This document shows positions 14,807 to 64,000 of a DNA stretch of 64,000 nucleotides, in pieces (position 1 is the first letter of the stretch; each line of letters begins with the position of its first letter). Source of the DNA: Chloroflexota bacterium (GTDB lineage Bacteria; Chloroflexota; Anaerolineae; Anaerolineales; Villigracilaceae); NCBI GenBank assembly GCA_024434165.1, contig QMIW01000003.1, forward strand, positions 1 through 64,000. Reading direction: 5' to 3'. The notes under the pieces are model-generated. The model saw nothing but the letters and a program-made list of their open reading frames with translations. It ran no database searches and was not told the DNA's origin. Position numbers and translations under genes: made by a program.

Positions 14807-14842
14807 GATACGCCTTCCGTTTTGGTGAGCGCTTTTGATTTC

Positions 14843-14875
14843 AGACCCTAAAGGTCTTACAGACCTTTAGGGTCT
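14843..14875. repeat. perfect 15-bp palindromic repeat between methylase and ATPase genes
   Basis: AGACCCTAAAGGTCT (14843-14857), spacer TAC, then its exact reverse complement (14861-14875). No T-tract of terminator type follows. It looks like a dispersed palindromic element that settled in the operon and may tune expression of the ATPase gene. Confidence 0.7.
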
Positions 14876-14884
14876 ATTCTAATC

Positions 14885-17788: not shown

Positions 17789-17809
17789 GAAATCCTCATT
17801 CAAAATTTA

Positions 17810-20323: not shown

Positions 20324-20362
20324 TCGTCGCTCCTCAACGCTTTTGACCTGTACAGTGGCCAG

Positions 20363-21157
20363 TTAATATATTTGATTCTTCAAGTATGCAACAAAGTTTA
20401 CCAGCGATTGAAGCGTATGAAGAACACTGAGGGGATTAGCCTCAAAAGGGCCACAACTTTTGTATAACGTCGCAGAGGGGAGGCGTTTAACAACCCGCAA
20501 CTGCGGCTTCATCTCGATCTGAATTGCTTGCACATTCATGTCCGAATTAATGGATTTATGCTTAGATGCGAATGTAGTGATTGTACCTGGGTTGGATGCT
20601 GAAAATCTGTTTCGTCGAACAACAAAATCGGATGATTTGCATCCCGGTTCCATTGTGCTAAACAGGAGTTCAAGTTGCTCAACGTGTTCTAATCCAATTG
20701 ACGATGTGTCTGCCGGGCTTTTCTGGCGGATACCCAAATCAATAGTCTGGTCAGCATCCAGCGTAGGGCTATACATTGCTGCACCATGAAGATCTATAAC
20801 AAAACGGATGCCACGCTCTTCAATTAATCTTTGAATTTCTCTTTTGTATGGAATGTCCTCCCTTTCTGTATAATTGGGGTCATATTCTCCACATTTCGCC
20901 TTCATAACGATCGCAGGGGTGTTACAAATCTCCGACAACAACAATGCCATTCCCGCAGTGTACTCGTCCTCTTCGTGCCAGATCTGTTTACCATCGTTTC
21001 TGAAAGTGATAGCGCCATGCGGCGCTGAGAGTAAAACTGGCGAGTCGTAGTTAATAACCTCAAAGGGTAATTGTCCAACAGGCGGAAAATCATCATAGCG
21101 AACTTGCTTTTCAAGTTCAACGAGTTTTTCAATATGAGCGAGAGTCAGTTTTTCCAT
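20363..21157 (-). CDS. N-formylglutamate amidohydrolase-like hydrolase in the defence operon
   Basis: 264 residues. VLLSAPHGAI (about 41-50), HEEDEYT (61-67), DPNY and FVIDLHGA (about 119-126) follow the pattern of the zinc-dependent N-formylglutamate amidohydrolase/poly-gamma-glutamate hydrolase group, with conserved His, Glu and DLHG metal or acid residues. The classical role is amide hydrolysis in histidine breakdown, but no histidine genes are near. It lies 40 bp from the helicase-nuclease gene and 25 bp from the SNF2 gene on the same strand and shares the AT-rich composition of the former. I infer a modification or effector enzyme of the defence operon. Substrate unknown. Confidence 0.6.
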   Translation of the reverse strand: MEKLTLAHIEKLVELEKQVRYDDFPPVGQLPFEVINYDSPVLLSAPHGAITFRNDGKQIWHEEDEYTAGMALLLSEICNTPAIVMKAKCGEYDPNYTEREDIPYKREIQRLIEERGIRFVIDLHGAAMYSPTLDADQTIDLGIRQKSPADTSSIGLEHVEQLELLFSTMEPGCKSSDFVVRRNRFSASNPGTITTFASKHKSINSDMNVQAIQIEMKPQLRVVKRLPSATLYKSCGPFEANPLSVLHTLQSLVNFVAYLKNQIY

Positions 21158-21181
21158 AGCTTGTGGATGATAGAACAGTGA

Positions 21182-24100: not shown

Positions 24101-24721
24101 ATCCAGCCGGGCAATCACCAGCGACATTTCGTCCAAAGCGTTGCCAGTTCGAGCAGATGAAATACGATCATTGGTCAGAATGTCAAAGGGCAAATGAAAA
24201 CGCTGGTTGAGTTCATCCTGCCATTGTTCGACCAGGTTGCCAGGCACGACGATCAAACAACGCTGGAGATCGCCCCGAAGCATCAATTCCTTGATGAACA
24301 AGCCGGTCATGATTGTCTTCCCCGCCCCCGGATCGTCCGCCAATAGAAAGCGCAGTGGCTGACGGGGGATCATTTCCGCATAGACAGCCGTGATTTGATG
24401 TGGCAACGGCTCGACCAAAGAGAGGTGAACAGCCATCCACGGGTCAAACAAATAAGCCATCCGAATGCGATAAGCCTCTGAAACCAATCGGAACAGTTCT
24501 CCGTGACCATCGAATGCCCAGGGTGTGCCGGCTTCGACAATCTCCAGCCCATTTTCGCGATCGCGGAAAATCAGCTCGCTATGGTCCTTTCCGGAGACGT
24601 CGCGATACGTCAACTCCACCACATCCGAACCGTGCCACTGGACGTTCAGGATGACGACTGGACCAGAAGGGGTGAGTCCTTTTACTTGTGCGTTTCGTTT
24701 CAAGTCTTCGAGCTTAGCCAT
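21182..24721 (-). CDS. SNF2-family helicase with DUF3883 C-terminus (Hma-type helicase)
   Basis: 1179 residues from ATG at 24721. The N-terminus MAKLEDLKRNAQVKG is the usual start for this family, so upstream TTG and GTG codons were not chosen. Walker A DDPGAGKT (129-136), DEAH (230-233), and the late motifs EHRDTL, ATDAAGEGINLQ and RFGRIHRIGQ make a complete SNF2 motor. A long charged helical region precedes a C-terminal DUF3883 domain (about 1085-1165: NPVDVSKQNLGWDIE-type start, then FIEVKGR). Such helicases translocate on double-stranded DNA and are the recognition motor in Hma and DISARM-like systems. A proline/glycine-rich segment around 22121-22166 is encoded by a repeat. First gene of the operon. 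Confidence 0.87.
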   Translation of the reverse strand: MAKLEDLKRNAQVKGLTPSGPVVILNVQWHGSDVVELTYRDVSGKDHSELIFRDRENGLEIVEAGTPWAFDGHGELFRLVSEAYRIRMAYLFDPWMAVHLSLVEPLPHQITAVYAEMIPRQPLRFLLADDPGAGKTIMTGLFIKELMLRGDLQRCLIVVPGNLVEQWQDELNQRFHLPFDILTNDRISSARTGNALDEMSLVIARLDKMSRDEELQAKLRQTDWDLVVVDEAHKMSASVFGGEIKYTKRYHLGELLSQRTRHLLMLTATPHNGKEEDFELFMALIDADRFEGRYREGVHNPDASDLMRRLVKEQLLKFDGTPLFPERRAYTVTYQLSDLEAALYEQVTSYVREEFNRADNLDSDRRGTVGFALTVLQRRLASSPEAIYQSLKRRRERLESRLREERLLKRGSEIPLAETMLAELPRLDEEGLEDLEDSPDAELEKTTEEVLDSATAARTIAELELEIARLKELEKLADRVRHSGQDRKWTELARLLQDQAEMFDADGRRRKLVIFTEHRDTLNYLADKISTLLGRPEAVVTIHGGLSRDVRRETQKSFVQEKDVLVLVATDAAGEGINLQRAHLMVNYDLPWNPSRLEQRFGRIHRIGQTEVCHLWNLVAEETREGDVYVHLLRKIERQRDALGDGVFDVLGQLFRETSLRQLLLEAVRYGDQPEVRARLFQAVDNLADRKRVQELLEERSLARDSMDISQVQRIREDFERAQARRLQPHFIESFFKAAFEQLGGTLHPREPLRFEITHVPAIVRSRGRMLGGPVLPRYERITFHKEAINLPGKMTAEFVCPGNPLMDAVTDLILERYRSLLRQGAILLDPNDLGEEIHVLFYLEHSIQDARTSPASPPLSGVGGGSRRVVSRQMQFVKINEQGETEDAGPAPFLDYQPLPEELRPLIEPVLEAEWLRGDLESSVRGYAAQHLVPEHLREVKQRREEMIERTRAAVQDRLTKEIAYWDHRAEELKAQEQAGRRNARLNSELARRRADELQVRLQRRMEELEQERHLAAQPPIIIGGALVIPAGLIAKLQGQAIQPEVALFAHQRKAVEDAAMAAVMAKERELGNDPVDVSKQNLGWDIESRLPNEKGRLRFIEVKGRVQSATTVTITKNEILAALNKPDDFILAVVEVAFEQDQAVAKEVHYIRKPFQREPDFAATSVNYEWRELIKRT
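22121..22166. repeat. GC-rich interspersed repeat inside the SNF2 helicase gene
   Basis: CTCCCTCCCC and GGAGGGG flank a spacer. The translated stretch (SPASPPLSGVGGGSR) is low-complexity and interrupts an otherwise conserved helical region. Same class of in-frame repeat insertion as in the methylase and polymerase genes. Confidence 0.5.
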
Positions 24722-24886
24722 ATGTATCGCCAGTTTCACTCCAGTGTTTTCAACAAGAGCGACCAATCACATAAATCATGTGTTGCAAATCCTCCCAGCG
24801 GGTTAGAAGCGTGCGGGGACTGCAAATTCCTTGCGAGGGTTTTCTCGGAGTCAAGCAATTGGAACCCTTGGGATGATGACATTAGT

Positions 24887-25214: not shown

Positions 25215-27002
25215 ATGCACATTAATCGGATTGAAATAATCAACTTCAGGAATTTCCAGCATCTTGAACTACATTTGAGTGAAAATGCTGTCATAGTTGG
25301 GGAAAACAAGATTGGTAAATCCAGTCTAATCTATGCGCTGAGATTAGTATTGGATCCAAGATTACCAGATAGCGAACGACAATTGCGATTGGAAGATTTT
25401 TGGGATGGATTGCCACGTCCATTGACAAAGGATGACTGTATTCAAATATCAGTCGATATTACAGATTATGAGAATGATGAAGGATTGATGGCCATTCTTG
25501 CGGAGCACTTGGTGCAAGCCGAACCGATGATTTCAAGGCTAACATATCTATATCGTCCGAAACCTAGTTTGGAGGGAGACCCCAAAAAAGAAGCAGACTA
25601 TGAGTTTCTGGTTTATGGAGGTGACCGACCTGAAAATCATATAGGATATGAAACGAGAAAGTGGATGCCGCTCTCAGTTCTCCCGGCACTCCGAAACGCA
25701 GAAGATGATCTTGCAAGTTGGAGCCATTCCCCATTGGCCCCACTCTTGAGGGCTGTAACTGCCAACATCAAGCGAGAAACGCTTGAACAGGCAGCTGTAG
25801 AAGTTACTAGCGCTACAAAAAAGGTGGCTGAGATTGATGAGATTAAAGCACTTTCAGATCAAATACAAAGCAGCTTGCAAGAAACAGTAGGAGAAAAACA
25901 CGCGATCATTACAAACCTCGGGTTTTCTCCTGCTGACCCAGACAGACTTTTGCGATCCCTCAGACTATTTATTGATGGTGGGCGGCGCGGGGTAGGTGAT
26001 GCAAGTCTGGGTTCCGCCAATCTATTGTATTTAACCCTCCTAACGTTGGATTTGGAGAGGCAGGTCCAAGTTGGAGAACGGAACCACACATTCCTAGCGA
26101 TCGAAGAACCAGAAGCACATTTGCATCCACATATTCAAAGACTTGTTTTTCGAGACTTCTTGACTCCTCGAAATGTGGTTGTAGCCGAACCAACAAAAAA
26201 ACCACAAACAGTATTATTGACAACTCATTCCCCACATATAGTAAGTGTTGCTCCGCTAAACTCCATAGCTGTGCTACGAAAATCTGAGGATGGTAAGAGC
26301 ACAGTAGGGATGTCTACGGCAAAACTTAGATTGGATAACAAAACAATCAAAGATTTGGAACGGTATTTAGATACCAATCGAGGAGAGATTGTGTTCGCTA
26401 AAGGAATCCTACTTGTAGAAGGCCCGGCAGAAGAGTTTGTTCTACCGAGGCTTGGAAAACTTCTTGATGTAGATTTCGATGAAATGGGAATCTCAGTTTG
26501 CTCGGTTGACGGAACCAACTTCGCTCCTTATGTACAATTCCTCGGCAAGAACGGATTGAAACTTCCTTTTGCCGTATTGACAGACTTGGATCCGACACAA
26601 GATGGGAAATTCCTTGGAGTTACACGGGCAAGGACATTGATAAATCTTCTGGATGAAAACATTAAATTAGAGGAGGTGCCGGACAAAGATATCCCTGCTG
26701 TTGCTATGGATTATGGAATATTTCTGAATCATCAAACTTTTGAAATTGAATTGTTCTCTGCCGGTGTTCATGAAAAAATGTGTGATACATTGGTTGAACT
26801 AACAACGAATGGCGCAGCTAGAGAAAGGGCAACGGCATGGAAGAAAAACCCGGAAACTGTTGATCGGGAACAGTTTCTGAAAGACATCGAGGATATTGGG
26901 AAAGGACGATTTTCACAAAGATTAGCGTCCGTTATAGATCAAAAAGTCTGTCCCGAATATATCGCTAATGCTATCAACTATGTCAGATTACATATCCGCT
27001 AA
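25215..27002 (+). CDS. gajA: OLD-family ATPase/TOPRIM nuclease (GajA-like)
   Basis: 595 residues, close to GajA length. P-loop GENKIGKS (29-36), ABC-type Walker B region EEPEAHLHPH in the middle, then a TOPRIM domain: LLVEGPAEEF (glutamate of the motif) and VLTDLDP (aspartates). In Gabija the ATPase regulates a DNA nickase active when nucleotide levels fall during phage replication. The immediate downstream overlap with a UvrD-like helicase is the diagnostic arrangement. AT-rich, thus likely imported. Alternative: a class 2 OLD nuclease-helicase pair outside the tested Gabija group. Confidence 0.83.
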   Translation: MHINRIEIINFRNFQHLELHLSENAVIVGENKIGKSSLIYALRLVLDPRLPDSERQLRLEDFWDGLPRPLTKDDCIQISVDITDYENDEGLMAILAEHLVQAEPMISRLTYLYRPKPSLEGDPKKEADYEFLVYGGDRPENHIGYETRKWMPLSVLPALRNAEDDLASWSHSPLAPLLRAVTANIKRETLEQAAVEVTSATKKVAEIDEIKALSDQIQSSLQETVGEKHAIITNLGFSPADPDRLLRSLRLFIDGGRRGVGDASLGSANLLYLTLLTLDLERQVQVGERNHTFLAIEEPEAHLHPHIQRLVFRDFLTPRNVVVAEPTKKPQTVLLTTHSPHIVSVAPLNSIAVLRKSEDGKSTVGMSTAKLRLDNKTIKDLERYLDTNRGEIVFAKGILLVEGPAEEFVLPRLGKLLDVDFDEMGISVCSVDGTNFAPYVQFLGKNGLKLPFAVLTDLDPTQDGKFLGVTRARTLINLLDENIKLEEVPDKDIPAVAMDYGIFLNHQTFEIELFSAGVHEKMCDTLVELTTNGAARERATAWKKNPETVDREQFLKDIEDIGKGRFSQRLASVIDQKVCPEYIANAINYVRLHIR

Positions 27003-28818
27003 TTTGCATCCTGCATATCTAAAAGCCGCTGAGGAGTTAAAAGATAATCCGGGACAGTGGAGAGCATACGAGTCAACCGGCAATTGTGTTGTTTTGGCCG
27101 GGCCTGGTAGCGGGAAAACCAAACTCCTGACAATCAAAATGGCGCGGATTATACATGAAAATATTCGCGCCCCGCAGGGAATTGCATGTATTACATATAG
27201 CACCGAATGCGCCCGTGATTTAAAGAAAAGACTGGATACTCTGGGAATTGAAGAAACGCGCAATACCTTTATCGGGACAATTCACGGATTTTGCCTTAAG
27301 CACATCATCCGTCCCTATGCCAAACTGGCAGGATATCCTTTGCCTAGTCCAATTAGAGTGGCCGATACAGAGACATGGAATGACTTGTTCAGTGAAGCTG
27401 CACATGAAGTTGGTATTGTTGACATGACTTATCTAAAGTCTACATTCGATAGATATCGCCGAACGTACCTGGATCGGAAAAGTTCAGAATTTCGGGATTC
27501 CTCAGCTGAAATCCCCCCTTTAATTGAGTGCTTTGAAAACAAACTCCATCGTGCAGGCTTTGTGGATTTCGACGATATGATGCTCATTGGGCTATGGCTG
27601 GTCGAACAAAATAAATGGATACGTCAAGCGCTACGATCTCGATTTCCCGTTCTTGTAATCGATGAATACCAAGATTTGGGTGTCCCTCTCCATTACCTTG
27701 TCCTGCAATTAGCCTTTAATGCAGGCATTCGAATATTTGCAGTGGGTGATCCCGATCAATCGATTTATGGGTTTAATGGTGCTCAACCTCACCTCCTCCG
27801 TAAACTTTCTGAGCACGACGCCATAGAAAGAGTAGAGCTAAACTTTAATTATCGATGCGCAAAGAAAATTGTTGCCAACTCAGTCGTTGCCCTCGGCGAA
27901 CACCGAGATTATCAATCGGTAAGGGCTGAGGAAGGAGAGATATATTTTTGGGAATGCCCTGATGGTCCAAACCAACAAGTAGAGACTATTTGTACAGAAA
28001 TCATCCCATCGGCCCTTGAGCGGGATAGAAATCGAACGCTTGGAGATATTGCCGTGCTTTATCTCGATAAATATGATGCTGCGCGAATTACTGCGGCTGC
28101 GAAGCGGCACAATATTAAATATATTGGAGGCGACCGAGAAGTAAGCTATAGACAAACACCTGTTACCCGTTGGCTTGAAGACTGTGCTGCTTGGTGCGCC
28201 GTCGGATGGCGTGAAGGGAAACCTCGGCTTTCTGCTATTCTAAAATTCTGGCTCAGCCTCCACGAGAATGTTGAGTCTAAATTGGAAGAAAAAACTCTAC
28301 GGCAACAACTGGTTGGTTACCTGTGGCGTCATAGGAATCCTCAAGAAAACCTGAAAGATTGGTTAGATGGGATGGTTTCTTTGGGATTGTCCACTGCTTT
28401 GGGTCAAGCACGGACTAGAACCGATGAAGTAGAATCACTTACACAATTAATAAACGTCGCCGCTGACCCGAATAAATTGGGAACATTCAATATCCAAGCA
28501 TTTGGTAATCTGCGCGGATCGCCTGATCACTTAAACTTGGTTACACTTCACAGCAGCAAAGGATTAGAGTTTGATGTTGTTATCATTATGGGTTTAGAGC
28601 AAGGTCGTATCCCTGGATTTAGAGTGGAAAGCGAAGACGAGTTCCGCGAGGAACGACGCAAGTTTTATGTCGGTTTAACGAGGGCAAAACGAGAGGTGCA
28701 CCTTTTATACTCTGGCTGGTATGAGAATAATAGGGGGACGAGGTTTAATTACGGCCCATCAGAATTTGTGATTGAACAGGGCGCGAAGTATGGGAGTGAA
28801 TTTTTCGATGAGCTATGA
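26968..28818 (+). CDS. gajB: UvrD/Rep-type helicase (GajB-like)
   Basis: 616 residues. Helicase motifs in order: GPGSGKT (45-51), IDEYQD, GDPDQSIYGFNGA, NYRC, TLHSSKGLEFD and YVGLTRAKREV, a complete SF1A set. The start overlaps the nuclease gene by 35 bp (or 23 bp if the next ATG at 26980 is used) and has no own ribosome binding site, so coupling is expected. It is somewhat longer than the characterised GajB (about 490 aa), with extra sequence between the motor halves. Role: DNA unwinding that activates or feeds the partner nuclease. Confidence 0.83.
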   Translation: MLSTMSDYISANLHPAYLKAAEELKDNPGQWRAYESTGNCVVLAGPGSGKTKLLTIKMARIIHENIRAPQGIACITYSTECARDLKKRLDTLGIEETRNTFIGTIHGFCLKHIIRPYAKLAGYPLPSPIRVADTETWNDLFSEAAHEVGIVDMTYLKSTFDRYRRTYLDRKSSEFRDSSAEIPPLIECFENKLHRAGFVDFDDMMLIGLWLVEQNKWIRQALRSRFPVLVIDEYQDLGVPLHYLVLQLAFNAGIRIFAVGDPDQSIYGFNGAQPHLLRKLSEHDAIERVELNFNYRCAKKIVANSVVALGEHRDYQSVRAEEGEIYFWECPDGPNQQVETICTEIIPSALERDRNRTLGDIAVLYLDKYDAARITAAAKRHNIKYIGGDREVSYRQTPVTRWLEDCAAWCAVGWREGKPRLSAILKFWLSLHENVESKLEEKTLRQQLVGYLWRHRNPQENLKDWLDGMVSLGLSTALGQARTRTDEVESLTQLINVAADPNKLGTFNIQAFGNLRGSPDHLNLVTLHSSKGLEFDVVIIMGLEQGRIPGFRVESEDEFREERRKFYVGLTRAKREVHLLYSGWYENNRGTRFNYGPSEFVIEQGAKYGSEFFDEL

Positions 28819-32388: not shown

Positions 32389-32871
32389 TCAACAGGTTCC
32401 AAGAAACCAGGCAGCAAGGGGCAGCGCCGCGCCGGCCAGGATCATTCCGAAGATGGACTCTCCGCATTCGATCAATGCGTTGGCAAACGTGGACGCGCCG
32501 CCAATCGAGGCGGAGAGCATGGAGGTGAATGCGGCTTTGAGCATGCGTAATGCCGCCAAGCCACCAATCAACCCGGAGGCAAGAGTGCCGAGTTCGCTGA
32601 TCGGTCCGCACCCGCCTCCGCCCGGCAGGGAGGATTGCAAGGCATTCACAATTTGCGGAATGCCCAAAAAGGCGAACAAGCCCAACACGACGATGGACAA
32701 CAACGCGGATACGGATTCCCACACCCACAGGTTTGCGCCCAGCACGCTCGCGGAACTCACGCGCAGCATCTGAGCAATTCCAGCCAGCAAAGCAAAAGCA
32801 AGGAGAGCGCCTGCGAGCGCCATCCACGCTTCGCGCAAAAAAGTGAGCAACAGGGATGAAGCGTCGGTCAT
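32389..32871 (-). CDS. membrane protein, VirB2-like or pore subunit of the transfer system
   Basis: 160 residues from ATG at 32871, which overlaps the stop of the ATPase gene by 4 bp. N-terminal helices resemble the neighbouring 88-aa protein (hydrophobic, then SVLGANLWVWESV). A glycine-rich linker (GGGGCG) and a second hydrophobic half follow, so it looks like a duplicated or extended pilin-type protein. Role inferred from neighbours. Confidence 0.5.
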   Translation of the reverse strand: MTDASSLLLTFLREAWMALAGALLAFALLAGIAQMLRVSSASVLGANLWVWESVSALLSIVVLGLFAFLGIPQIVNALQSSLPGGGGCGPISELGTLASGLIGGLAALRMLKAAFTSMLSASIGGASTFANALIECGESIFGMILAGAALPLAAWFLGTC

Positions 32872-33773
32872 GAAAGTACGATTACCTCGTGCTTGTGGAA
32901 TTCTTCTTCGAGCGCAGGATAAAAACACTCGCCCCAGAATTGGATGGGAAAGCGGCGTGTCGGCCCGGTGCGGTCTTTGAGCGTAATCACTTCGAGCGGG
33001 ACACAGCCGCACTCGCGCACGCTCCCTTTTCGCTGAACGACCAGCACGCGATCCGCCTCATAGGGGACCCGTTCATCGCCCAGCAGGGCGGATAGGTCAT
33101 CTCCATCCTTGAAATGCTCCGATTTCAATGCCGCGGCGGCGATCACCGCCCAGCCGTGATGCCGCGCCATCGCGCGGAGCGCGGCGGCTGCTTCGCCGCT
33201 GCGACCCTCCTCGTTGTTTACCATGCCAGTCAGTCCAACAACTGGAACGCGGTTGAGATAATCCACGGCAATCAGGGCAGGTCCCTGGACGGGAAAGGCG
33301 TAATCGTGAATGAGCATGTCTTCCAACGCACGCACCGTATCCTCCTGATAATTCAAGGACAGCAAGACCGCTTCGCTTGCGCGCGCCAACTCTGCTTCGA
33401 CCTTTTCCCGCACAGACTCCGAATGCGGACCAACGATCATGGCTTCCGTTTGCAGGAACAGGCGGTAGCGCAATTCTTCGGGCGTATGCTCGTAACATCC
33501 AATCGCAGACGGAATGCGGCTGGCGGCGGACTCGAACAACATCCGCAGCAGCCAGGAAGTCTTGCCGATTCCTGGCGCTGCGGCAAGGAGAGTCATGCCA
33601 CCGCCCCAGAAAGGCAGGCCAGCGAAGACACCAAAGGGGGTGTATGGTTGGGGATTGCCCAGGGTTCCAGAGCGCGGCATGGGGGCATGATATTCAATTG
33701 AAGGAGGGGGATGGGAACAACTGTCGCTATGGAGTTGTGTAATGTTGGCAATCAACGCTTTGGAGGGCAACAT
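32868..33773 (-). CDS. DnaB/RecA-like P-loop ATPase
   Basis: 301 residues with start at 33773 (AGAGGGGA upstream); longer or shorter starts are possible. Walker A APGIGKTS (66-73) and Walker B ALIAVDYLN, plus a C-terminal arginine-containing strand order, match the DnaB-type C-terminal/RecA fold. The primase-binding N-domain of a full replicative helicase is missing. It may load or drive helicase at the element's origin or act in transfer. First gene of the operon running down to 28.8 kb; it now sits next to the inserted STAND gene. Confidence 0.65.
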   Translation of the reverse strand: MLPSKALIANITQLHSDSCSHPPPSIEYHAPMPRSGTLGNPQPYTPFGVFAGLPFWGGGMTLLAAAPGIGKTSWLLRMLFESAASRIPSAIGCYEHTPEELRYRLFLQTEAMIVGPHSESVREKVEAELARASEAVLLSLNYQEDTVRALEDMLIHDYAFPVQGPALIAVDYLNRVPVVGLTGMVNNEEGRSGEAAAALRAMARHHGWAVIAAAALKSEHFKDGDDLSALLGDERVPYEADRVLVVQRKGSVRECGCVPLEVITLKDRTGPTRRFPIQFWGECFYPALEEEFHKHEVIVLS

Positions 33774-33843
33774 GAAATCCCCTCTGTTTACAATCGTTTT
33801 TGCTATTGTTTTTCTATCCGCTTGTGCGCCGCCCATCCGTTGA
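33772..33843 (+). pseudogene. lipoprotein signal peptide fragment
   Basis: ATG behind GGAGGGCAAC encodes MKSPLFTIVFAIVFLSACAPP, a textbook lipoprotein signal with lipobox LSAC, but stops after 23 codons. The next 120 bp stay open in another frame and then run into the 3' end of the STAND gene. Probably a frameshifted and truncated lipoprotein gene left at an insertion border. It starts head-to-head, overlapping the ATPase start. Confidence 0.4.
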
Positions 33844-33966
33844 CCATTCACACCCTGTCGCACAGACAGCGATCTCCATCTCGAAGAACGAAGGGGCAGA
33901 CGATGACATTGTTGATGAGGTGTCGGGAAATCAGTTTGTGAATTACTCCAATATCTTGTATGTCTG

Positions 33967-44952: not shown

Positions 44953-45219
44953 ATGGGCCGCACCGTCATCACCATCACTCAGCAGTTGAACGAAACCGAG
45001 AGCATGTTGTCTCGCTTCCGCAGGACCCTGCGGCGGAGCGACCAGTATATCTTCGACGGTCTCTTTGCCGCCGCGCGTCGGCACATCGCCGCGATCGGGC
45101 AGGCGGAGTCGCTTCTGCCATTCGAGTCGGCATTGCTCGCCATGTTGCTGGAACAGGCAAAGGAAATTGCGGTTCTCCAACAGGAACTCGATGAACTGAA
45201 AAAGAAGCGCACGTGTTGA
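44953..45219 (+). CDS. small helical protein of the polymerase cassette
   Basis: 88 residues from ATG at 44953; a TTG 9 bp earlier is less likely. Almost fully helical: residues 10-60 carry alternating charged and hydrophobic residues and the end is a coiled coil (EQAKEIAVLQQELDELKKK). No enzymatic motif. It lies between the RecA-like gene and the polymerase and may be an oligomerising adaptor in the same complex. Confidence 0.6.
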   Translation: MGRTVITITQQLNETESMLSRFRRTLRRSDQYIFDGLFAAARRHIAAIGQAESLLPFESALLAMLLEQAKEIAVLQQELDELKKKRTC

Positions 45220-45274
45220 TTGACATAGCCGTGTCGAAACATTTGTGTTGACTAGCATAGCTGTGTCGAAACAT
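45214..45274 (+). repeat. two tandem 29-nt direct repeats in front of the polymerase gene
   Basis: TGTTGATTGACATAGCCGTG plus TCGAAACAT (45214-45242) recurs as TGTTGACTAGCATAGCTGTG plus TCGAAACAT (45246-45274), four mismatches, period 32. The second copy runs into the ATG of the polymerase. Could be an operator pair or repeat-derived duplication. Confidence 0.7.
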
Positions 45275-47438
45275 GGATGAGGCAACTGGCTGGCTGTTGG
45301 ATGTGTACGCGGACACGGAAGGCGGGATCGTGCTGTGGCTGCTGGCGGACGACGACAAACGCCTGCGCCTGCGCATGGACTTCGACGTTATGTTTTACGC
45401 CGCGGGGGATTTCGCTCTCTTGCGCCAGGCATGGATGTACTTGAAAGAAAAAAATGTAAAACTGGAGCGCGCAACCCGCCGCGATCTCTTTCTCGGCAAG
45501 CGCGATGTATTGGCAATTACCACATCCAACCCTACGGAACTCCCCAAAATCTTTGCAGACCTTTCGCGACGATTTCCATCGTTGGATTACTACGATGCCG
45601 ACATCCCCCTCAGCCTGCGATTTATCGCGCAGACGGATACCCATTTATTGGGACGCTGCCGCGTCGAACTGGATGGTGAACGGGTTTGGTCCATTGAGCC
45701 TTTGGACTCACCCTGGGAGATTGACCCGGCTCCCATCCCTCTGCGAATCCTGACTCTCAGCCCGGATGAGAATCCTGTGGTTCGCAAACCCAGGAACCTT
45801 CGCGTTGGAAATAAAGAGAAAGAATACAGCCTGTCGCTCGAACCAACTCGGGCTTTTCTGATCAGCCTGAAGTCCGACCTGAAACGCTTTGATCCCGACC
45901 TGATCCTGACCGACTACGGCGACACGTGGTTGTTCCCGCAGTTGAAAATCTGGTCGCAGGAGAGCGGGCTTGATTTGAATCCCAATCGCGATGAGGATAA
46001 ACAAGTCCTGACGCGCCGCGCCGATAGTTATTTTGCATACGGACAGTTGATCTATCGCGGCGCGCAGGCGCATTTGTTTGGCCGCTGGCACATTGACCGC
46101 AGGAACGCCATGTCGTTTGGGGAATATGGTCTGGAAGGCGCGATGGAGCAGGCGCGCGTCACAGGTCTTGGCGTGCAGGAGATGGCGCGCAAATCCCCCG
46201 GCGCAGGGATCACTGCCATGCAGATGCTGACCGCATTGAGAAGCGGCGTCATGATCCCCGTACAAAAACAGCAGGTCGAAGGGAGGAAGACGCTGGCTGA
46301 CTTGATCCGCGCCGATCATGGCGGGCTGATCTATCAGCCCATTATCGGTGTGCATGGCAATGTGGCGCAGATTGATTTCTCCTCCATGTATCCGGCGATC
46401 ATGGTCAAGCACAATATATCTCCGGAAACTGTCGGCAAAGAAAATGCGCCGGAAGGATTGGTCCCCAAAACCTTGCGACCTCTTTTGGAAAAACGCCTGG
46501 CGCTCAAGAACATTCTTTCGGACCTCCATCCGCGCGATTGCCGTATCGAAATCCTCAAGGCGCGCGCCGCGGCGCTCAAGTGGCTGCTGGTGGTTTGCTT
46601 TGGGTATCTGGGCTATAAGAATGCCCGCTTTGGAAAGATCGAATCGCACGAAGCCGTGACTGCCATGAGCCGCGAGTTGATGCTGCAGGCAAAGGAAATC
46701 GCGGAGGATATGGGATATGTTGTTTTGCACATGTATATTGACTGCCTGTTTGTCCAGCAGGAGGGTTTTCATAGGTCATTGGATTTTGCACCGCTGATGA
46801 ATGCCATTGAAGAGAAAACGGGCATCCCCATTGCATTGGAAGGAGTCTTCAAGTGGGTGGCTTTCCCGGCTTCCAAGCGGGATGCGCGTGTACCCGTGCC
46901 TAATCAATACTTCGGCGCTTTTCAGGCTTGCACTGAGCCATGTCGAAGTGATGGGACGATCAAATATCGCGGCATTGAATTGAGAAGACGGGACACAACC
47001 ATGTGGGTGCGAAAGATTCAGTTGGCGGCGCTCGAAATTCTCGCACAGGCGGACACGCCGGAGGAACTGGCGGGCTATATCCCCGACGTGTTCGCGCTGG
47101 TCGAACGCGCCAGACGCGACTTGAAAGCCGGCCGCGTTCCTCTCGAAGAGTTGATCGTCAGGCAGAAATTGAGCCGCGTTCTGGATGGATACAAATCCCC
47201 CTCGCCCGCCGCACGCGCGGCAATGCAGTTGAAAGCGATGGGCAGGGAGATCGCGCCCGGTCAATCGGTTGCGTTCCTGTTTACGCGCGGCGGTTCCGAG
47301 GTCCACGCCTGGGAGCTTGGAGAGGCGCTGAACCCCGGAAGATTGGATACGAAAAGGTACTTCAAACTGCTGGATCGGGCGATACAAACTGTGCTCGATC
47401 CGCACAGACGATCATGTGTTTCGGAACGATTGTTGTGA
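45273..47438 (+). CDS. B-family DNA polymerase, exonuclease-inactive type
   Basis: 721 residues. Polymerase motif A IDFSSMYPAI (D368), motif B region KWLLVVCFGYLGYKNARFG, and motif C YIDCLF (D490) keep both metal-binding aspartates, although the first D of the usual D-x-D is Y488. In the N-terminal exonuclease region the expected DxE block (RILTLSPDEN) and the later N-x-D block are not intact, so proofreading is probably lost. A repeat-derived segment CTEPCRSDG interrupts residues around 555. Its neighbours (clamp-motif RecA-like protein, coiled-coil protein, palindrome in the promoter) suggest a damage-tolerance polymerase carried by the element. No RBS is evident; the start is fixed by the repeat and alignment. 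Confidence 0.85.
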   Translation: MDEATGWLLDVYADTEGGIVLWLLADDDKRLRLRMDFDVMFYAAGDFALLRQAWMYLKEKNVKLERATRRDLFLGKRDVLAITTSNPTELPKIFADLSRRFPSLDYYDADIPLSLRFIAQTDTHLLGRCRVELDGERVWSIEPLDSPWEIDPAPIPLRILTLSPDENPVVRKPRNLRVGNKEKEYSLSLEPTRAFLISLKSDLKRFDPDLILTDYGDTWLFPQLKIWSQESGLDLNPNRDEDKQVLTRRADSYFAYGQLIYRGAQAHLFGRWHIDRRNAMSFGEYGLEGAMEQARVTGLGVQEMARKSPGAGITAMQMLTALRSGVMIPVQKQQVEGRKTLADLIRADHGGLIYQPIIGVHGNVAQIDFSSMYPAIMVKHNISPETVGKENAPEGLVPKTLRPLLEKRLALKNILSDLHPRDCRIEILKARAAALKWLLVVCFGYLGYKNARFGKIESHEAVTAMSRELMLQAKEIAEDMGYVVLHMYIDCLFVQQEGFHRSLDFAPLMNAIEEKTGIPIALEGVFKWVAFPASKRDARVPVPNQYFGAFQACTEPCRSDGTIKYRGIELRRRDTTMWVRKIQLAALEILAQADTPEELAGYIPDVFALVERARRDLKAGRVPLEELIVRQKLSRVLDGYKSPSPAARAAMQLKAMGREIAPGQSVAFLFTRGGSEVHAWELGEALNPGRLDTKRYFKLLDRAIQTVLDPHRRSCVSERLL
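46931..46950. repeat. interspersed repeat element inside the polymerase gene
   Basis: CACTGAGCCATGTCGAAGTG, with CACT/AGTG ends, is translated in frame as a short polar insert. It has the form of dispersed repeats that I associate with Chloroflexota and some other genomes. Confidence 0.55.
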
Positions 47439-51204: not shown

Positions 51205-52755
51205 TTATCCTGAAATCAAAATCCTAGGGCGATATTGCAGGGCCTCCGCCAGATGCGACGGCTGGATGTTCTCACTCCCCGCCAGATCCGCAATCGTGCG
51301 CGCCAGTTTCAATACACGGTGATAGGCGCGCGCGGATAGATTCATCTGAGTCATAGCCGAACGCATCAGTCTTTCGCTTGTTTCATCCAATTTGCAGAAT
51401 TTACGAATTTCTGTAATGCGCATGTCGGCATTACAGGTAATGGAATACGCCGTTGAGTTGCCTGAATGATCGAGACCGGCAAAACGTTCCCGCTGACGTT
51501 GTCGCGCAGTTTCCACTCTTTGGCGAATGACCGCCGACGGTTCACCAAGCCGGTCGCTGGAAAGTTTCTCGTAATCCACGCGGGGCACTTCGATGTGAAT
51601 ATCAATCCGATCAAGCAGGGGACCCGAAAGCCGCTTCTGATACTTTGTCACCACGGAGGGCGCGCAGGTGCAGGGTTTCACAGGATCGCCATACCAGCCG
51701 CAAGGGCATGGGTTGGTCGCGCTAATCAGTTGAAAGTTGGCATTGAAGGTGAGCGAGCCCTGCGCGCGGCTGATAGTGACCACCTTGTCCTCCATCGGCT
51801 GGCGCATGACTTCCAGAACGCGGGTGCCGAATTCGAGAAATTCATCAAGAAACAGAACGCCGCGGTGCGCCAGGGAAATCTCACCGGGCTGGGGGATGTT
51901 CCCGCCCCCCACCAAGCCCGCGTGACTGATCGTGTGGTGCGGGGCGCGGAACGGGCGGTGACGGATCAGCGGCGTGCCAGGCGGTAGTTGATCTGCAATA
52001 GAGTAAATTCTGGTGACCTCCAATGATTCTTCCAGTGTCATTTCCGGCAGGATGCCGGGCATGGCGCGTGCCAATAAGGTCTTCCCAGATCCGGGCGAGC
52101 CGATAAGAAGACAATTGTGGCCTCCTGCCGCGGCAACTTCCAGGGCGCGCTTGACGTGTTCCTGCCCTTTGATTTCCGCAAAGTCCGTAGGAACAAACGC
52201 AGGCACCACTTCCTCTCCAGAAGGTACATAGGGTTGGATTGGATGGCGACCGGATAAATGCTCAAAGAGGGATGCGAGCGTTTTTACCGGGATGACTTCC
52301 AGATCGGGGATCAAAGCTGCCTCCGCCGCGTCCGCCTCCGGGACGACGATCCTTTTGTACCCCTGTGCTCGCGCGGTGGCAGCCATCGGCAGTATACCCC
52401 GTGTGTGACGTACCAGCCCGTCGAGGGAGAGTTCGCCAACCACCAACGTGCTTTCCACTGCCTGATGAGGAAGATAACCCGAAAGAACAATCACCCCCAG
52501 CGCGATGGGCAAATCATACGCGGGACCTTCCTTGCGGACCGAGGCTGGCGCAAGATTGACCACCACTCGTTTGCGGGGAAATTCCAGACCGGCGTTGCGA
52601 ATGGCCGTCTGGACACGCTCGCGGCTTTCCTGCACCGCGGCGTCCGGCAGGCCGACGATGGTCATGCCGGGCATGCCGCTGGTGTAATCCACCTCAACCT
52701 CGACGATCACGCCGTCGAGTCCGACAACTGCGCATGAAAAAATCCTGGCAAGCAT
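51205..52755 (-). CDS. comM: ComM/YifB family Mg-chelatase-like AAA+ ATPase
   Basis: 516 residues, standard length. The N-terminal ComM domain (MLARIFSCAVVGLDG, then GMPGMTIVGLPDAAV) precedes the AAA+ module with GSPGSGKT Walker A (about 218-225) and VLFLDEF Walker B, and the Mg_chelatase_C end (AYHRVLKLARTIADLAG). ComM acts as a branch-migration helicase during natural transformation. It is an unusual passenger in a transfer element, and could help integrate incoming DNA or be a chromosomal gene. Confidence 0.92.
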   Translation of the reverse strand: MLARIFSCAVVGLDGVIVEVEVDYTSGMPGMTIVGLPDAAVQESRERVQTAIRNAGLEFPRKRVVVNLAPASVRKEGPAYDLPIALGVIVLSGYLPHQAVESTLVVGELSLDGLVRHTRGILPMAATARAQGYKRIVVPEADAAEAALIPDLEVIPVKTLASLFEHLSGRHPIQPYVPSGEEVVPAFVPTDFAEIKGQEHVKRALEVAAAGGHNCLLIGSPGSGKTLLARAMPGILPEMTLEESLEVTRIYSIADQLPPGTPLIRHRPFRAPHHTISHAGLVGGGNIPQPGEISLAHRGVLFLDEFLEFGTRVLEVMRQPMEDKVVTISRAQGSLTFNANFQLISATNPCPCGWYGDPVKPCTCAPSVVTKYQKRLSGPLLDRIDIHIEVPRVDYEKLSSDRLGEPSAVIRQRVETARQRQRERFAGLDHSGNSTAYSITCNADMRITEIRKFCKLDETSERLMRSAMTQMNLSARAYHRVLKLARTIADLAGSENIQPSHLAEALQYRPRILISG

Positions 52756-56478: not shown

Positions 56479-58410
56479 TTATGAGTTGTCTCCTTCGCCG
56501 AAGAGGATCGTGCGCACAGCTGTCAGGCGAGGGTTATTGGAGCCCATTGTCTTTCTCCAGGCGTGCGCGAGCGGGTGATTGATTTGTTTGGGGAGTTCGT
56601 AGGTTCGTGTGGAGGTTGAGTCGATCAACATCAGGAGTTCACGAGGCGGCAGATCAGCAAATTGCCGGAAGACCCCGCGCGCTTCGCGAAATGGATGTTC
56701 TCGCAGACGGCTGATGGCGTAACCCAAGGGGTCGGATAGATTCCCGCTTTGCGGGCTGGCGACGTACAGCACCCACGAGACAAAGGCGTGCACGGAGGCC
56801 TGGACTTCCAGCAGTTCGCGCTGCACTTTGGGATGCACGTCGTTTTGTTGAAGGAGGGTTTCCAGCTCCCAAAAATCAGGGATCGCCGTCACCGCCGCCG
56901 TTTTATTTTCGTGTTGGGTGGTGGAAGTGTTCTCTTGATGAGTGTTTATGGGGTGTTTAAAAGAGTTTAAATCAGTGCCATTTGCGTCTACCATATTGTT
57001 GCCATTTGCGTCCACTAATCCTTCCATCTGCGTCCGGCTATTGCTACCATCTGCGTCCACCCTATTCCTGCCATTTGCGCCTGCCTTATTCGTTCCATTT
57101 GCGTCCAGCGGTTCATCCAACAGAACACGATAGGTACGCGGCATCGTATCCACGCGCAAGTCCAAATATGCGCTGCCTCCAGTTGATTCGATCTCAACCA
57201 GAAAACGAGTCAGATCCCCGCCGCGCTGCTCTGTAACCCACCCCATGTTCAACCATGCCTGCACAGTCTTATAACGCCTCGATCCAATGAGTTCTGCCAT
57301 CTCCTGATAGCCCCGCTTGAACGTCACCACTTCCCGCCGCTCGCCCGTGCGTGAATTTAAGTACGCCATGTCGCGCGCGACTGTCACCAGCCAGGCTTGC
57401 GCCGGCGTCAGGTTGAACTGCCTGATTGTCTCTGTGATGAAATAATGCGTGATGTGAATGTCTCCCAGGCAGTTGATGATCCGGCGATGCAGTTGCTGCG
57501 CGAGACGATCTATTTCGGGAGAATAGGTTTCGCCGGCTTCACATCGCGCCATGTCCATGACGGTGTTGAATTGGATATTGGATTGCTGCAACTCCACCGG
57601 TGAAAGCAACTCCATCACAACTTCCGCGTCGAGCAATTCCTGCAAAGCATCGGGCAGCGATGCTCCGCTGTTCAGCAGTTCCTTCAATCGCGCGTACACG
57701 GCCGCGGCATCGGCGCGTGTCAATCTGGGAGCCATACAAACCTGGTAACGGACCGGCCGGCGATGCGGGCGTCCATCCCGCCCGCGGCGGTAGTGGCGCT
57801 CGCCCTGCGGGTCCACGCGCTGCACCAATCCGTGTAATTCAGATTGAATCTCCTTATGCCGCAAGGACCTCCAGAAGGCGCCAAAGCTCAACCCGCTGAA
57901 ACGCATGACCTCGCGGCTGTGAAGCGCCAGACCCGTTTCTTTTCTTTCCGAATGCACCTTCCACGCCGCCTGGTGAAAGCCGATGTACAGCCAGACGGCT
58001 TTGGGACTAATCTCCGTCCCCAGCCGGCGGAGATACCCCTTCACCACCACCTGTTTGTGCGGCTGGACGATCTTGTCGTAGTCCAGCCACTGTACTGGCT
58101 CGATGGCAATTTCCGGTTCATCGTTCTCTTCGTCAATAGATTCCATTTCCTCTTGGGGGTGATCCCCAACCACGAACCGAACGGAAACAGATTGATTGAG
58201 GATACCGATCAATAATCGCTGCACTGTGCTCGCGAGGCGTGACTCCAGCCAGTCGCGCGCGTAAACATTGCGCGTGGAAACTATCATCACGCCATCTTCA
58301 AGCGACAGCGGTTCCGTATCGCGCACCCAGGTATCGAAGGAGGCGCGCGGCATGTCCAGTTGGAGTTGATTCAGTATGGATTGCCAGACCTGCTCTGGAT
58401 TCATCGGCAT
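56479..58410 (-). CDS. replication protein with DnaA N-terminal domain
   Basis: 643 residues from ATG at 58410 (AGGGAG upstream). Residues about 1-85 (NPEQVWQSILNQLQLDMPRA then VRFVVGDHP) match DnaA domain I/II; no AAA+ domain follows. Instead a long DNA-binding region with helix-turn-helix character and a C-terminal helical part are present, as in element Rep proteins. In the middle a repeated DANG-type segment (about 435-480) is encoded by the iteron-like repeats. I infer that it binds these iterons and recruits host DnaB. Partner genes parA and the ParB-like protein lie immediately upstream. Confidence 0.72.
   Translation of the reverse strand: MPMNPEQVWQSILNQLQLDMPRASFDTWVRDTEPLSLEDGVMIVSTRNVYARDWLESRLASTVQRLLIGILNQSVSVRFVVGDHPQEEMESIDEENDEPEIAIEPVQWLDYDKIVQPHKQVVVKGYLRRLGTEISPKAVWLYIGFHQAAWKVHSERKETGLALHSREVMRFSGLSFGAFWRSLRHKEIQSELHGLVQRVDPQGERHYRRGRDGRPHRRPVRYQVCMAPRLTRADAAAVYARLKELLNSGASLPDALQELLDAEVVMELLSPVELQQSNIQFNTVMDMARCEAGETYSPEIDRLAQQLHRRIINCLGDIHITHYFITETIRQFNLTPAQAWLVTVARDMAYLNSRTGERREVVTFKRGYQEMAELIGSRRYKTVQAWLNMGWVTEQRGGDLTRFLVEIESTGGSAYLDLRVDTMPRTYRVLLDEPLDANGTNKAGANGRNRVDADGSNSRTQMEGLVDANGNNMVDANGTDLNSFKHPINTHQENTSTTQHENKTAAVTAIPDFWELETLLQQNDVHPKVQRELLEVQASVHAFVSWVLYVASPQSGNLSDPLGYAISRLREHPFREARGVFRQFADLPPRELLMLIDSTSTRTYELPKQINHPLAHAWRKTMGSNNPRLTAVRTILFGEGDNS
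56978..57106. repeat. six iteron-like direct repeats inside the replication gene
   Basis: CCATTTGCGTC or CCATCTGCGTC starts at 56978, 57002, 57024, 57047, 57071 and 57095, spacing 24, 22, 23, 24 and 24 bp. Two of these intervals are not multiples of three, so the same DNA word is read in different frames. The conserved element is therefore DNA, not protein. An AT-rich tract lies next to them at about 56940-56975. Origin candidate. Confidence 0.7.
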
Positions 58411-58507
58411 CGCTCCCTGTGGCAAATAGAGCCGTTTTTGATTCCCCATCCTGCAAGACCTGCTTGCCGAGAAGCGCGTCTCCTGAGCCTTCCTGTGCGT
58501 TCGACGC

Positions 58508-58624: not shown

Positions 58625-59227
58625 TCATTCCTCGCCTCCCTGCAGCAATGTCATGACGGTGACTTTTTCAACCGGCTCGAGTCTCAGCAGGCCGGCTTCG
58701 TGCGCCCGCAGTCCATATCGAAGGAGGGCAGATACCAGTTCCCCCACTGGCACGTTCAATCCTTCTTCAGAGGCTAATGCTGAAATCGTCCGTTTGAGAT
58801 CGGGAGTGAAATTGCGCCAGGAGGTGATCACTCGCCAGGATGGTCCTGATGATTTACGTGCTTTGGGTTTTCCTTTCATTGGATAAACTCCTGAAATTTG
58901 AGATGAGGGATATAACGTCATGCGCATGCGGTATGGATTCGGGCGTGGGCGAAGATCCAGATCGCCTTCCTCGTATGCGCGCATTGCGTGTTCCAGAATG
59001 CGACTAGCGACCTCGCCTTGAGGCACGCACAATTCCGCCGCGATGGATTTCACCTTCATTACCAGTTTGGACTCCACGCCGCGATACACCACCTTGCAGT
59101 CCAGGTTTTCTTTTTCCCATTGCCGGCTGCGTTTGCGCGGCGACGCTACGCGTAAAGAGTCGTATATGCTGGGCGGATGAACCGCAGTTGTATTTGAGGT
59201 ATCGAATGGATTCCGCCTCTTCGACAT
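58625..59227 (-). CDS. ParB-like centromere-binding protein
   Basis: 200 residues. The sequence seems to contain two similar halves (about 50-95, LVMKVKSIAAELCVPQGEVA, and about 145-190, LKRTISALASEEGLNVPVGE), each ending in a helix pair with ALLRYGLRAHEAG or RILEHAMRAYEEGD. This may be a duplicated ribbon-helix-helix-type domain. It follows ParA by 9 bp. It should bind a centromere and contact ParA for segregation. Candidate binding site: the phased GGCG array 60 bp away. Confidence 0.6.
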   Translation of the reverse strand: MSKRRNPFDTSNTTAVHPPSIYDSLRVASPRKRSRQWEKENLDCKVVYRGVESKLVMKVKSIAAELCVPQGEVASRILEHAMRAYEEGDLDLRPRPNPYRMRMTLYPSSQISGVYPMKGKPKARKSSGPSWRVITSWRNFTPDLKRTISALASEEGLNVPVGELVSALLRYGLRAHEAGLLRLEPVEKVTVMTLLQGGEE

Positions 59228-59236
59228 CCCGCCTCC

Positions 59237-60007
59237 CTAGAACTTCATCACCAGTTGGGTCAGCGCCTGGTATTCCTTGGCGGCGCGGCACAAGGGGTCC
59301 ATTTCGAAGATGGTCTGTCCCTGCGCGGCACATTCCCGCAGAAGCGTCGCGCGATGGATGGGAGGCAAAACGCTGGTGTCGAAACGCTCGCGCAAATCCT
59401 CCATTGTTGCTTTGCTCTCGCGGGTTTGTTCGTCATAGAAGGTTGGCAGGATGCCCAGGAGATTCCCGCGCCAGTTTTTCTTCTCCTGCAAGATGCTCAT
59501 CATGAGCAGAACTTTTGCAAGCCCATCCGCGGAAAGAAATTCGGTGGCTGTGGGAACGATCACGAGATCGGAAGCCCACACCGCTCGTTCTTGGATTCCG
59601 CCAACGCTGGGAGCAGTGTCAAAGATGATGTAATGCAATCCTCCCTTGAAGAAACGGCTAATCGAATTTCGGATGGCGGAGATGGGTTGGTCCTGCGCGT
59701 TAAGCACGGTTTGGGCTGCCATTATTTGCTGGTCGCCGGGCAAGAGATACAGCCCTTCCCGACCTGAGAAGCGCACCCACGACTGAACGAACGTCGTCTC
59801 CTGTGGGGTTGCGCCCATTGTGAGCAGATAGAAAGCGCCCGGTTCGGGGCTGCGTCCAAGCGCCGTGGCGCACTGACCTTGAGGGTCGAGATCGATTAGC
59901 AAGACACGTCTCCCTTTTTGTGAAAGGCCATGCGCAAGGGATACAGCGGTAGTGGTCTTTCCGACCCCGCCTTTTTGATTGGCAATACAAATTGTCTTTG
60001 TAGGCAT
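59237..60007 (-). CDS. parA: ParA partition ATPase
   Basis: 256 residues, complete. Deviant Walker A KGGVGKT (12-18), Walker A' LLIDLDPQGQ (about 36-45) and Walker B YIIFDTAPS (about 115-123). Small, without an N-terminal HTH, thus type Ib-like. Drives segregation of the element when it exists as a replicating circle. Operon with the ParB-like gene. Confidence 0.92.
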   Translation of the reverse strand: MPTKTICIANQKGGVGKTTTAVSLAHGLSQKGRRVLLIDLDPQGQCATALGRSPEPGAFYLLTMGATPQETTFVQSWVRFSGREGLYLLPGDQQIMAAQTVLNAQDQPISAIRNSISRFFKGGLHYIIFDTAPSVGGIQERAVWASDLVIVPTATEFLSADGLAKVLLMMSILQEKKNWRGNLLGILPTFYDEQTRESKATMEDLRERFDTSVLPPIHRATLLRECAAQGQTIFEMDPLCRAAKEYQALTQLVMKF

Positions 60008-62876: not shown

Positions 62877-64000
62877 ATGAGCCGACGAGCCGCCATATAC
62901 GCCCGCGTATCCACGGATATGCAACGCGACAATTTTTCCATTCCATCCCAGATTGCTGAGTGTCTGAAGTATGCCAGGAAAAAGAATTATGCTTTGGTCG
63001 GTAATCAGTATATTGATCCGGAGACCGGCAAGGATGTTTCACCCGATTATCCTGAAGCCATTCCTGCCTATGTGGATGACTACACATCGCGCGAACTATC
63101 CCGCCCTAGTTTGGATGCCACGCTGTATTACCTCGAAACATATGGTTTCGATGTTTTGATCGTACACGCCTTGGACCGGTTGGCCAGGGATCCCTATATT
63201 CGACAGACATTGGAACGTGAATTCAGTAAGCGTGGCGCGCGCGTTGAGTTTGTCTTGGGCGCCTATGAAGAAACTCCAGAAGGGGAAGTACGCAAAGACT
63301 TGGATGCCACTTTTGCCAAGTGGGAAAACGCAAAGAGAGTCGAACGTTGTATGCGTGGCAAGAGAGCCAAAGCTGAAAGTGGAAGATGGGTAGCCGGGAT
63401 TGTACCTCTGGGATATCAATCAGATCCTGATGCCAAAGGTGGACTGGCGATTATTCCTGAACAGGCAGAAATTGTACAAAGCATATTCCATATGTACACT
63501 GAGGAAAATCGCTCCATACGGGACATTGTCCGCATCCTTAATGAAGGGGAGTTTCGACCATACCGGGCTGGGCAGGAATGGGCCAAGTCAAGCATCCGGC
63601 GTATATTGACGAATACAGCATATATCGGACATTACTATTTCAACAAGCATAAACGCATGGGCACCAGACTAGAAAATAGGGATCGCGAAGATTGGATTCG
63701 CATTGAATGTGATCCCATAATTGATTTTGCAACGTTTGAAAAAGTGAAAAAACGCATGAAACACAACAAGGCTTATATGAGAAAACACCCATCTCGTACC
63801 TATCTGTTGAGCGGAATGGTGTTTTGTTCAAAATGCGATAAACCCTATCTTTCCCAAACCCAAAAGCCAAGCAAAAAACATCGCAGACCAAATGAAGCCC
63901 AATCCTATCGTCACCGTAAAATTGCCGGACATTGCATGAACAAGCAAATTTCAGCGCGTGTTCTCGAACCAGTGGTCTGGGAGAAAGTTCTTGGGATTCT
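62877..64000 (+). CDS. large serine recombinase (partial, runs off the window)
   Basis: ATG behind AAGGAG; 374 codons are visible and the frame is open at the window end. RRAAIYARVSTDMQ contains the nucleophile serine. Then the resolvase core (ALDRLARD), the recombinase domain (SIRDIVRILNEG, then NTAYIGHYYF) and a zinc ribbon starting CSKC. The coiled coil and C-terminal part are missing from view. Catalyses att recombination to integrate or excise the element. Directly downstream of the repressed promoter, which would set the timing of excision. Confidence 0.93.
   Translation, partial: MSRRAAIYARVSTDMQRDNFSIPSQIAECLKYARKKNYALVGNQYIDPETGKDVSPDYPEAIPAYVDDYTSRELSRPSLDATLYYLETYGFDVLIVHALDRLARDPYIRQTLEREFSKRGARVEFVLGAYEETPEGEVRKDLDATFAKWENAKRVERCMRGKRAKAESGRWVAGIVPLGYQSDPDAKGGLAIIPEQAEIVQSIFHMYTEENRSIRDIVRILNEGEFRPYRAGQEWAKSSIRRILTNTAYIGHYYFNKHKRMGTRLENRDREDWIRIECDPIIDFATFEKVKKRMKHNKAYMRKHPSRTYLLSGMVFCSKCDKPYLSQTQKPSKKHRRPNEAQSYRHRKIAGHCMNKQISARVLEPVVWEKVLGI

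Follow-up and report, generated by a model that had tools for sequence, protein, structure and literature searches.

A candidate replication origin inside a Rep-like initiator gene of a Chloroflexota mobile element

The O initiator of phage lambda is a 300-aa protein without a DnaA domain I, which acts with four 18-bp iterons and a separate helicase loader, P. The annotated iterons lie 20, 24 and 23 bp apart within gene O, occupy three reading frames and are followed by an AT-rich tract. Iterons of the Rep_3 type are usually found outside the rep gene. The iterons of pSK639 also lie outside its rep gene; in the RepA_N group, the origin-encoded part of Rep is a dispensable linker and the C-terminal domain is host-specific (PMC5703833).

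Here, we describe a repeat array inside a Rep-like gene in a 64,000-nucleotide stretch from a Chloroflexota bacterium (contig QMIW01000003.1, positions 1 to 64,000; hereafter the window). Such a layout is already known from phage lambda and from some staphylococcal plasmids; what appears to be new, judging from sequence comparison, is the initiator family, in which only the DnaA domain I was recognised.

The repeat array and selection on its DNA

The features of the locus are collected in Table 1. The first ATG of the Rep-like gene gives a protein of 656 aa, and the ATG at 58404 (MNPEQ..., 641 aa) is the likelier start. An earlier note, made from the letters of the window, had described six copies of a repeat 22-24 bp apart inside the coding region, two intervals that are not multiples of three, and an AT-rich tract bordering the array. 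All three observations were borne out: the six copies are spaced as listed in Table 1, copy 4 is read in frame 2, and the most AT-rich 40-mer of the gene (56933-56972, 70% vs. a gene mean of 44%) directly borders the array. Three of the six copies are exact matches to GACGCAAATGG and the other three are one base off; five are read in frame 0 (Asp-Ala-Asn/Asp-Gly type), and the two frame offsets, at the successive spacings of 23 and 22 bp, cancel.

Table 1. Features of the Rep-like locus and its neighbourhood, in window positions
Feature	Position	Strand	Description
Rep-like gene	56479..58449	-	open frame; DnaA_N (Pfam); homologues across Chloroflexota
Array of six direct repeats GACGCARATGG (putative iterons)	56978..57105	-	spacing 24/24/23/22/24 bp
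Iteron 1	57095..57105	-	GACGCAAATGG, frame 0
Iteron 2	57071..57081	-	GGCGCAAATGG, frame 0
Iteron 3	57047..57057	-	GACGCAGATGG, frame 0
Iteron 4	57024..57034	-	GACGCAGATGG, frame 2 (Thr-Gln-Met); slip common to all close relatives
Iteron 5	57002..57012	-	GACGCAAATGG, frame 0
Iteron 6	56978..56988	-	GACGCAAATGG, frame 0
AT-rich tract with TTTAAAC/TAAAC repeats, putative DNA-unwinding element	56933..56974	-	synonymous sites conserved
Conserved box AACACTTCCACCACC, 3′ of the AT-rich tract	56917..56931	-	codon-level conservation
DnaA domain I module, residues 20-79	58213..58392	-	PF11638, E=4.7e-10
Two winged-helix domains, predicted DNA-binding	57097..58083	-	AlphaFold pLDDT 85, pTM 0.85
C-terminal helical domain of Rep	56482..56892	-	AlphaFold; conserved in homologues
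200-aa protein, two tandem RHH-like motifs by eye	58625..59227	-	conserved neighbour between rep and parA
ParA-type ATPase	59237..60007	-	PF13614, E=1.6e-34
Large serine integrase	62877..64000 (to 64520, past the window)	+	PF00239, PF07508

The array was also reported by Tandem Repeats Finder. When codons were shuffled so that the protein was kept (n = 300), the best 11-mer, with at most one mismatch, reached four copies at most, and when the order of codons was shuffled (n = 150), it reached three at most; among 2-kb tiles of the window, the score was 2 or lower everywhere except in the two tiles holding the array. In the bacterium's own 4.4-Mb genome, the paired word was found at the array locus only. 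Downstream of the AT-rich tract, the AACACTTCCACCACC box (codons 507-511) is identical in all 17 sequences covering these codons. Runs of ACCACC recur at the place of the box in several distant homologues. Near the array, nothing resembling the DnaA box TTATCCACA to within one mismatch was found.

The same genus and GTDB contigs supplied close relatives of the gene, with 63-84% protein identity. All of them retain the six copies at unchanged spacing, with copy 4 in the shifted frame, and the additional weaker array matches seen in some lie between the repeats and carry three mismatches. Synonymous identity was then calculated on a codon alignment of 18 sequences, in which pairs sharing an amino acid were scored for sharing the codon. 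It amounts to 0.87 for codons of the array and 0.85 for those of the AT-rich tract (codons 492-514), compared to 0.61 in the rest of the gene, which argues that the DNA is under selection; moreover, the twelve highest 20-column windows of synonymous identity all fall within codons 456-511. The choice of Asp codon depends on its place in the DNA word, since every Asp at position 1 (83/83) is encoded by GAC and every Asp at position 3 (24/24) by GAT, in a gene whose remaining Asp codons are divided between GAT and GAC (279 : 216). Only selection at the DNA level explains this pattern simply. Likewise, Ala within the word is encoded by GCA in 86 of 90 cases, as against 152 of 815 elsewhere in the gene. 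The earlier note had proposed that the conserved unit is the DNA, and had suggested comparing relatives for DNA spacing and looking for loss of the repeat from a retained protein segment; synonymous sites are indeed far more conserved there than elsewhere in the gene, the spacings are the same in all close relatives, and each of these relatives retains all six copies, so the loss that would have spoken against the proposal was not seen.

The Rep protein and its homologues

In the search of the window Rep against Pfam, DnaA_N was the only match, with neither the AAA+ domain (domain III) nor the DnaA-box-binding domain IV detected. The domain I model superimposes on DnaA domain I of structure 4tps with Z 15.1 and rmsd 1.3 over 80 residues, and its sequence is about 60% identical to the N-terminus of DnaA from the same host genome. 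Rep and the host DnaA alike have Tyr at the position aligned to Phe46 of E. coli DnaA, a residue important for the contact with DnaB (PMC4980987).

AlphaFold modelling of the 641 residues, with an alignment of 37 sequences, gave confident domains joined by a linker (residues 437-506, pLDDT <50). These residues correspond to codons 452-521 in the 656-aa numbering and comprise nearly the whole array, the AT-rich tract and the box; the repeat-encoded segment is predicted by the model to be a disordered linker between the winged-helix part and the C-terminal domain. A protein stretch that is a mere disordered linker would imply that selection acts on the origin DNA and not on the peptide. Residues 108-436, which form the winged-helix part, reached pTM 0.85 when folded alone. 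The VIA-align list of structures similar to this part is headed by three kinds of repeat-binding initiator, at Z scores below 8, which can reflect a common arrangement: RepE54 of F (Z up to 6.8, 179 residues, rmsd 4.4), structures 4pql and 4pt7 (both Z 6.1) and 5kbj (Z 5.6), which match the second winged helix over about 85 residues, and pi of R6K in complex with iteron DNA (Z 5.7). The titles of 4pql, 4pt7 and 5kbj contain "initiator" and "Rep-DNA complex", and we take these structures to be the pSK41-type RepA_N domain. For the winged-helix part, Foldseek alone returned nothing at E values below 0.001, and the sequence-based search of the C-terminal domain against solved structures gave no convincing match.

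None of the 37 family members matches the RepA_N profile (PF06970) at E 0.01 or the Rep_3 profile (PF01051), and the window protein has no match among O-like profiles. One homologue matches phrog_391 and another phrog_345; distant homologues match PHROGs described as replication initiation protein, O-like and DnaD-like helicase loader. The search with the Rep part following domain I gave no match in plasmid and phage records, and the scan of IMG/VR gave no confirmed relative. With matches to RepA_N and Rep_3 profiles, to plasmids and phages and confirmed ones in IMG/VR all lacking, the initiator family appears to be distinct in sequence from those described. No published description of it was found in a literature search whose coverage mostly stopped short of subscription journals.

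A search with a profile of the Rep part after domain I covered 396 genomes of the class, 29 of which have homologues, and 400 drawn from the phylum, 25 of which do (the samples overlap, and the weakest phylum matches are remote). Among homologues whose gene is complete, most have an array in this linker too, built of other words. For example, L058 has GGACAAAATGAGCACC at spacings of 22, 22, 22 and 22 bp, running through all three frames, and L103 has nine copies of GTGGCGCAAATG at alternating spacings of 23 and 22 bp; spacings of 23/31 bp are found with a CACTGGTGAACTGC-type word in L081 and with CCAAAAGGCGACACGG in L083, and spacings of 31-33 and 42 bp with GAAAAGGGAACCGG in L088. The array is weak or short in L085 and L060, and none was seen in the remote phylum matches L091-L101. 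In 13 of 17 subfamilies (one representative each), the copies occupy more than one reading frame; all copies share one frame in L075, L077 and L079. Two successive spacings can add up to a multiple of three (23 + 22 = 45 bp, 23 + 31 = 54 bp); we infer that duplicating such a pair can lengthen an array without disturbing the reading frame, while the sites within the pair ignore it.

Spacings across subfamilies cluster at 21-24, 30-33 and 42-47 bp, near multiples of 11 bp. A period of 10.9 bp fits them best (R=0.75, as against 0.20 with random spacings), a strong signal to which no clean probability can be attached, because spacings within families are not fully independent. In 20 of 21 representatives, with one tie, AT content is higher in the 60 bp on the 3′ side of the array than in the 60 bp on its 5′ side, and the 3′ flank often holds short repeats of TTTAAAC or CTCTTAAAACC.

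DnaA domain I is a movable module of Rep. It is N-terminal in the group of the window, and in several of the homologues searched for it, it was not detected. We also observed it at the C-terminus in L075, L076 (two copies), L081, L082, L083, L085, L086 and L089. The domain I tree, drawn from a short sequence and having many long branches, bears no claim on the source of the module or the number of its acquisitions.

Gene neighbourhood and the carrying element

The gene order rep, 200-aa RHH-like gene, parA recurs in relatives. The 200-aa protein, a possible partition partner, has no match in Pfam or NCBIfam. All Rep copies seen are located in genome contigs, two of which look like complete chromosomes, and chromosomal contigs of G026 and G032 contain more than one related copy per genome.

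Beside the serine integrase lies the cut-off 5′ half of a comM gene (64468-65127 of the window's contig, C1), the 3′ half of which was found on another contig (C61:103599-104492). Given this split gene beside the integrase, the element was probably inserted into comM by its serine integrase. Since the 3′ half is accounted for on C61, the comM (yifB) gene at 51208-52755, which is 76-79% identical to the comM halves, is a complete extra copy; carried by the element, it apparently replaces the gene that the element breaks. The location of the 3′ half on another contig also led us to drop an element of 12.4 kb bounded by comM at 51208-52755 and the fragment at 64468. On C61, an N-terminal fragment of a serine recombinase adjoins the comM 3′ half (L130 6745-7146).

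Further genes were noted within the element. A family-B DNA polymerase gene (45273-47435) is 75% conserved in G032 (L113), and a DnaB-like ATPase gene is located at 32871-33863; together, they suggest that some of the replication machinery is supplied by the element itself. A 32-bp repeat, possibly regulatory, occurs twice just upstream of the polymerase gene (45213-45274). Defence cargo recognised by PADLOC comprises a class I prokaryotic Argonaute with an REase-type partner (8501-11381), HmaC/HmaB/HmaA with a PDC-S28 helicase (11483-24766) and Gabija GajA/GajB (25215-28815).

A candidate origin, its alternatives and its known counterparts

We consider it very probable that the array provides the iterons of a theta-type origin located inside the gene of its own initiator. 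The product of this gene has the make-up of a replication initiator (domain I, winged-helix matches, PHROG matches of distant homologues), and the suggestion of a plausible origin within Rep, already made from the letters of the window, gains support from the recurrence of the array and its AT-rich flank in distant relatives. In the mechanism that we propose, the tandem winged helices of Rep would bind the six repeats, which, being about two helical turns apart, would let a nucleoprotein array form along roughly the same side of the helix; the AT-rich tract beside it would melt, and DnaA domain I, possibly together with the C-terminal domain, would bring the replicative helicase. Once excised, the element may use this origin. 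All of these steps, from Rep binding through melting and helicase recruitment to origin activity and its use by the excised element, are ones that we infer. We count it against a role as origin that all copies seen reside in genome contigs and none was found in plasmid or phage records.

The most serious rival, although an improbable one, is that the repeat serves as a partition centromere (parS/parC) to which the 200-aa RHH-like protein would bind and on which the neighbouring ParA would act. In the window, as in most close relatives, both genes are found immediately upstream of rep, and centromeres of such partition systems can be iteron-like. However, the array goes with rep, invariably within the one linker, and persists where neither partner was found (L133/G261, searched over more than 8 kb upstream and nearly 8 kb downstream; L136/G366; L059/G041); a centromere, moreover, needs no AT-rich tract, yet one follows the array in nearly all homologues. 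That tract, the most AT-rich of the gene and itself constrained at synonymous sites, also speaks against the array being a Rep-binding regulatory site (for autorepression, copy-number handcuffing or incompatibility) rather than a start site. Regulatory roles are common for iterons, and sequence cannot separate binding from initiation, but the array lies more than 1.3 kb inside the gene, away from the promoter, and we judge a purely regulatory site to be as improbable as the centromere.

The least probable explanation is that the repeat is a feature of the protein, i.e., a low-complexity Asp-Ala-Asn-Gly linker spread by in-frame duplication, the likeness of the DNA being a by-product. It would account for the frame shared by five of the six copies and for the single frame kept throughout L075, L077 and L079. 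The conservation of synonymous sites nevertheless makes it very unlikely: codon shuffles that preserve the protein never produce six copies, the frame slip is common to all close relatives, and in other subfamilies the word is read in two or three frames.

Extending the origin interpretation to the homologues, we lean, with moderate confidence, towards the view that the Rep proteins of Chloroflexota mobile elements form an undescribed family, characterised by tandem winged helices, an origin in the linker region made up of frame-independent words that differ between subfamilies and lie two, three or four helical turns apart, and an N- or C-terminal DnaA domain I that would recruit the host's helicase without DnaA. 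If so, they would provide a defined candidate origin and initiator for the mobile elements of a group with few genetic tools, and hence a ready vector module to try. The dozens of homologues would be a natural experiment in keeping one DNA word inside a coding sequence, from which the requirement for helical phasing could be read and in which the co-variation of Rep and word could be studied. Possibly, as the movable domain I suggests, such elements borrow the helicase-recruiting module of their host.

Comparison with known systems places the locus beside several of them. As in lambda O, the putative iterons lie midway through the initiator gene, with the presumed DNA-binding portion on one side, the presumed helicase-recruiting portion on the other and an AT-rich tract 3′ of them (PMC7466680), but the lambda iteron sequence is unrelated to the words of the window. 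RepA_N plasmids likewise have Rep boxes in the middle of rep, and their N-terminal winged helix (pSK41 Rep; PMC5703833) may have a counterpart in the window Rep, which is twice as long and contains DnaA domain I and two predicted winged helices. With the Rep_3 initiators (RepE of F, pi of R6K), it may share, on modest scores, the tandem winged helices that bind direct repeats in those proteins. It resembles bacterial DnaA in its N-terminal domain I, including an aromatic residue at the position aligned to Phe46, but matches DnaA_N only. By analogy, the candidate origin of the window would be organised like the origins of lambda O and the RepA_N plasmids, with an initiator, the window Rep, that matches the profiles of neither.
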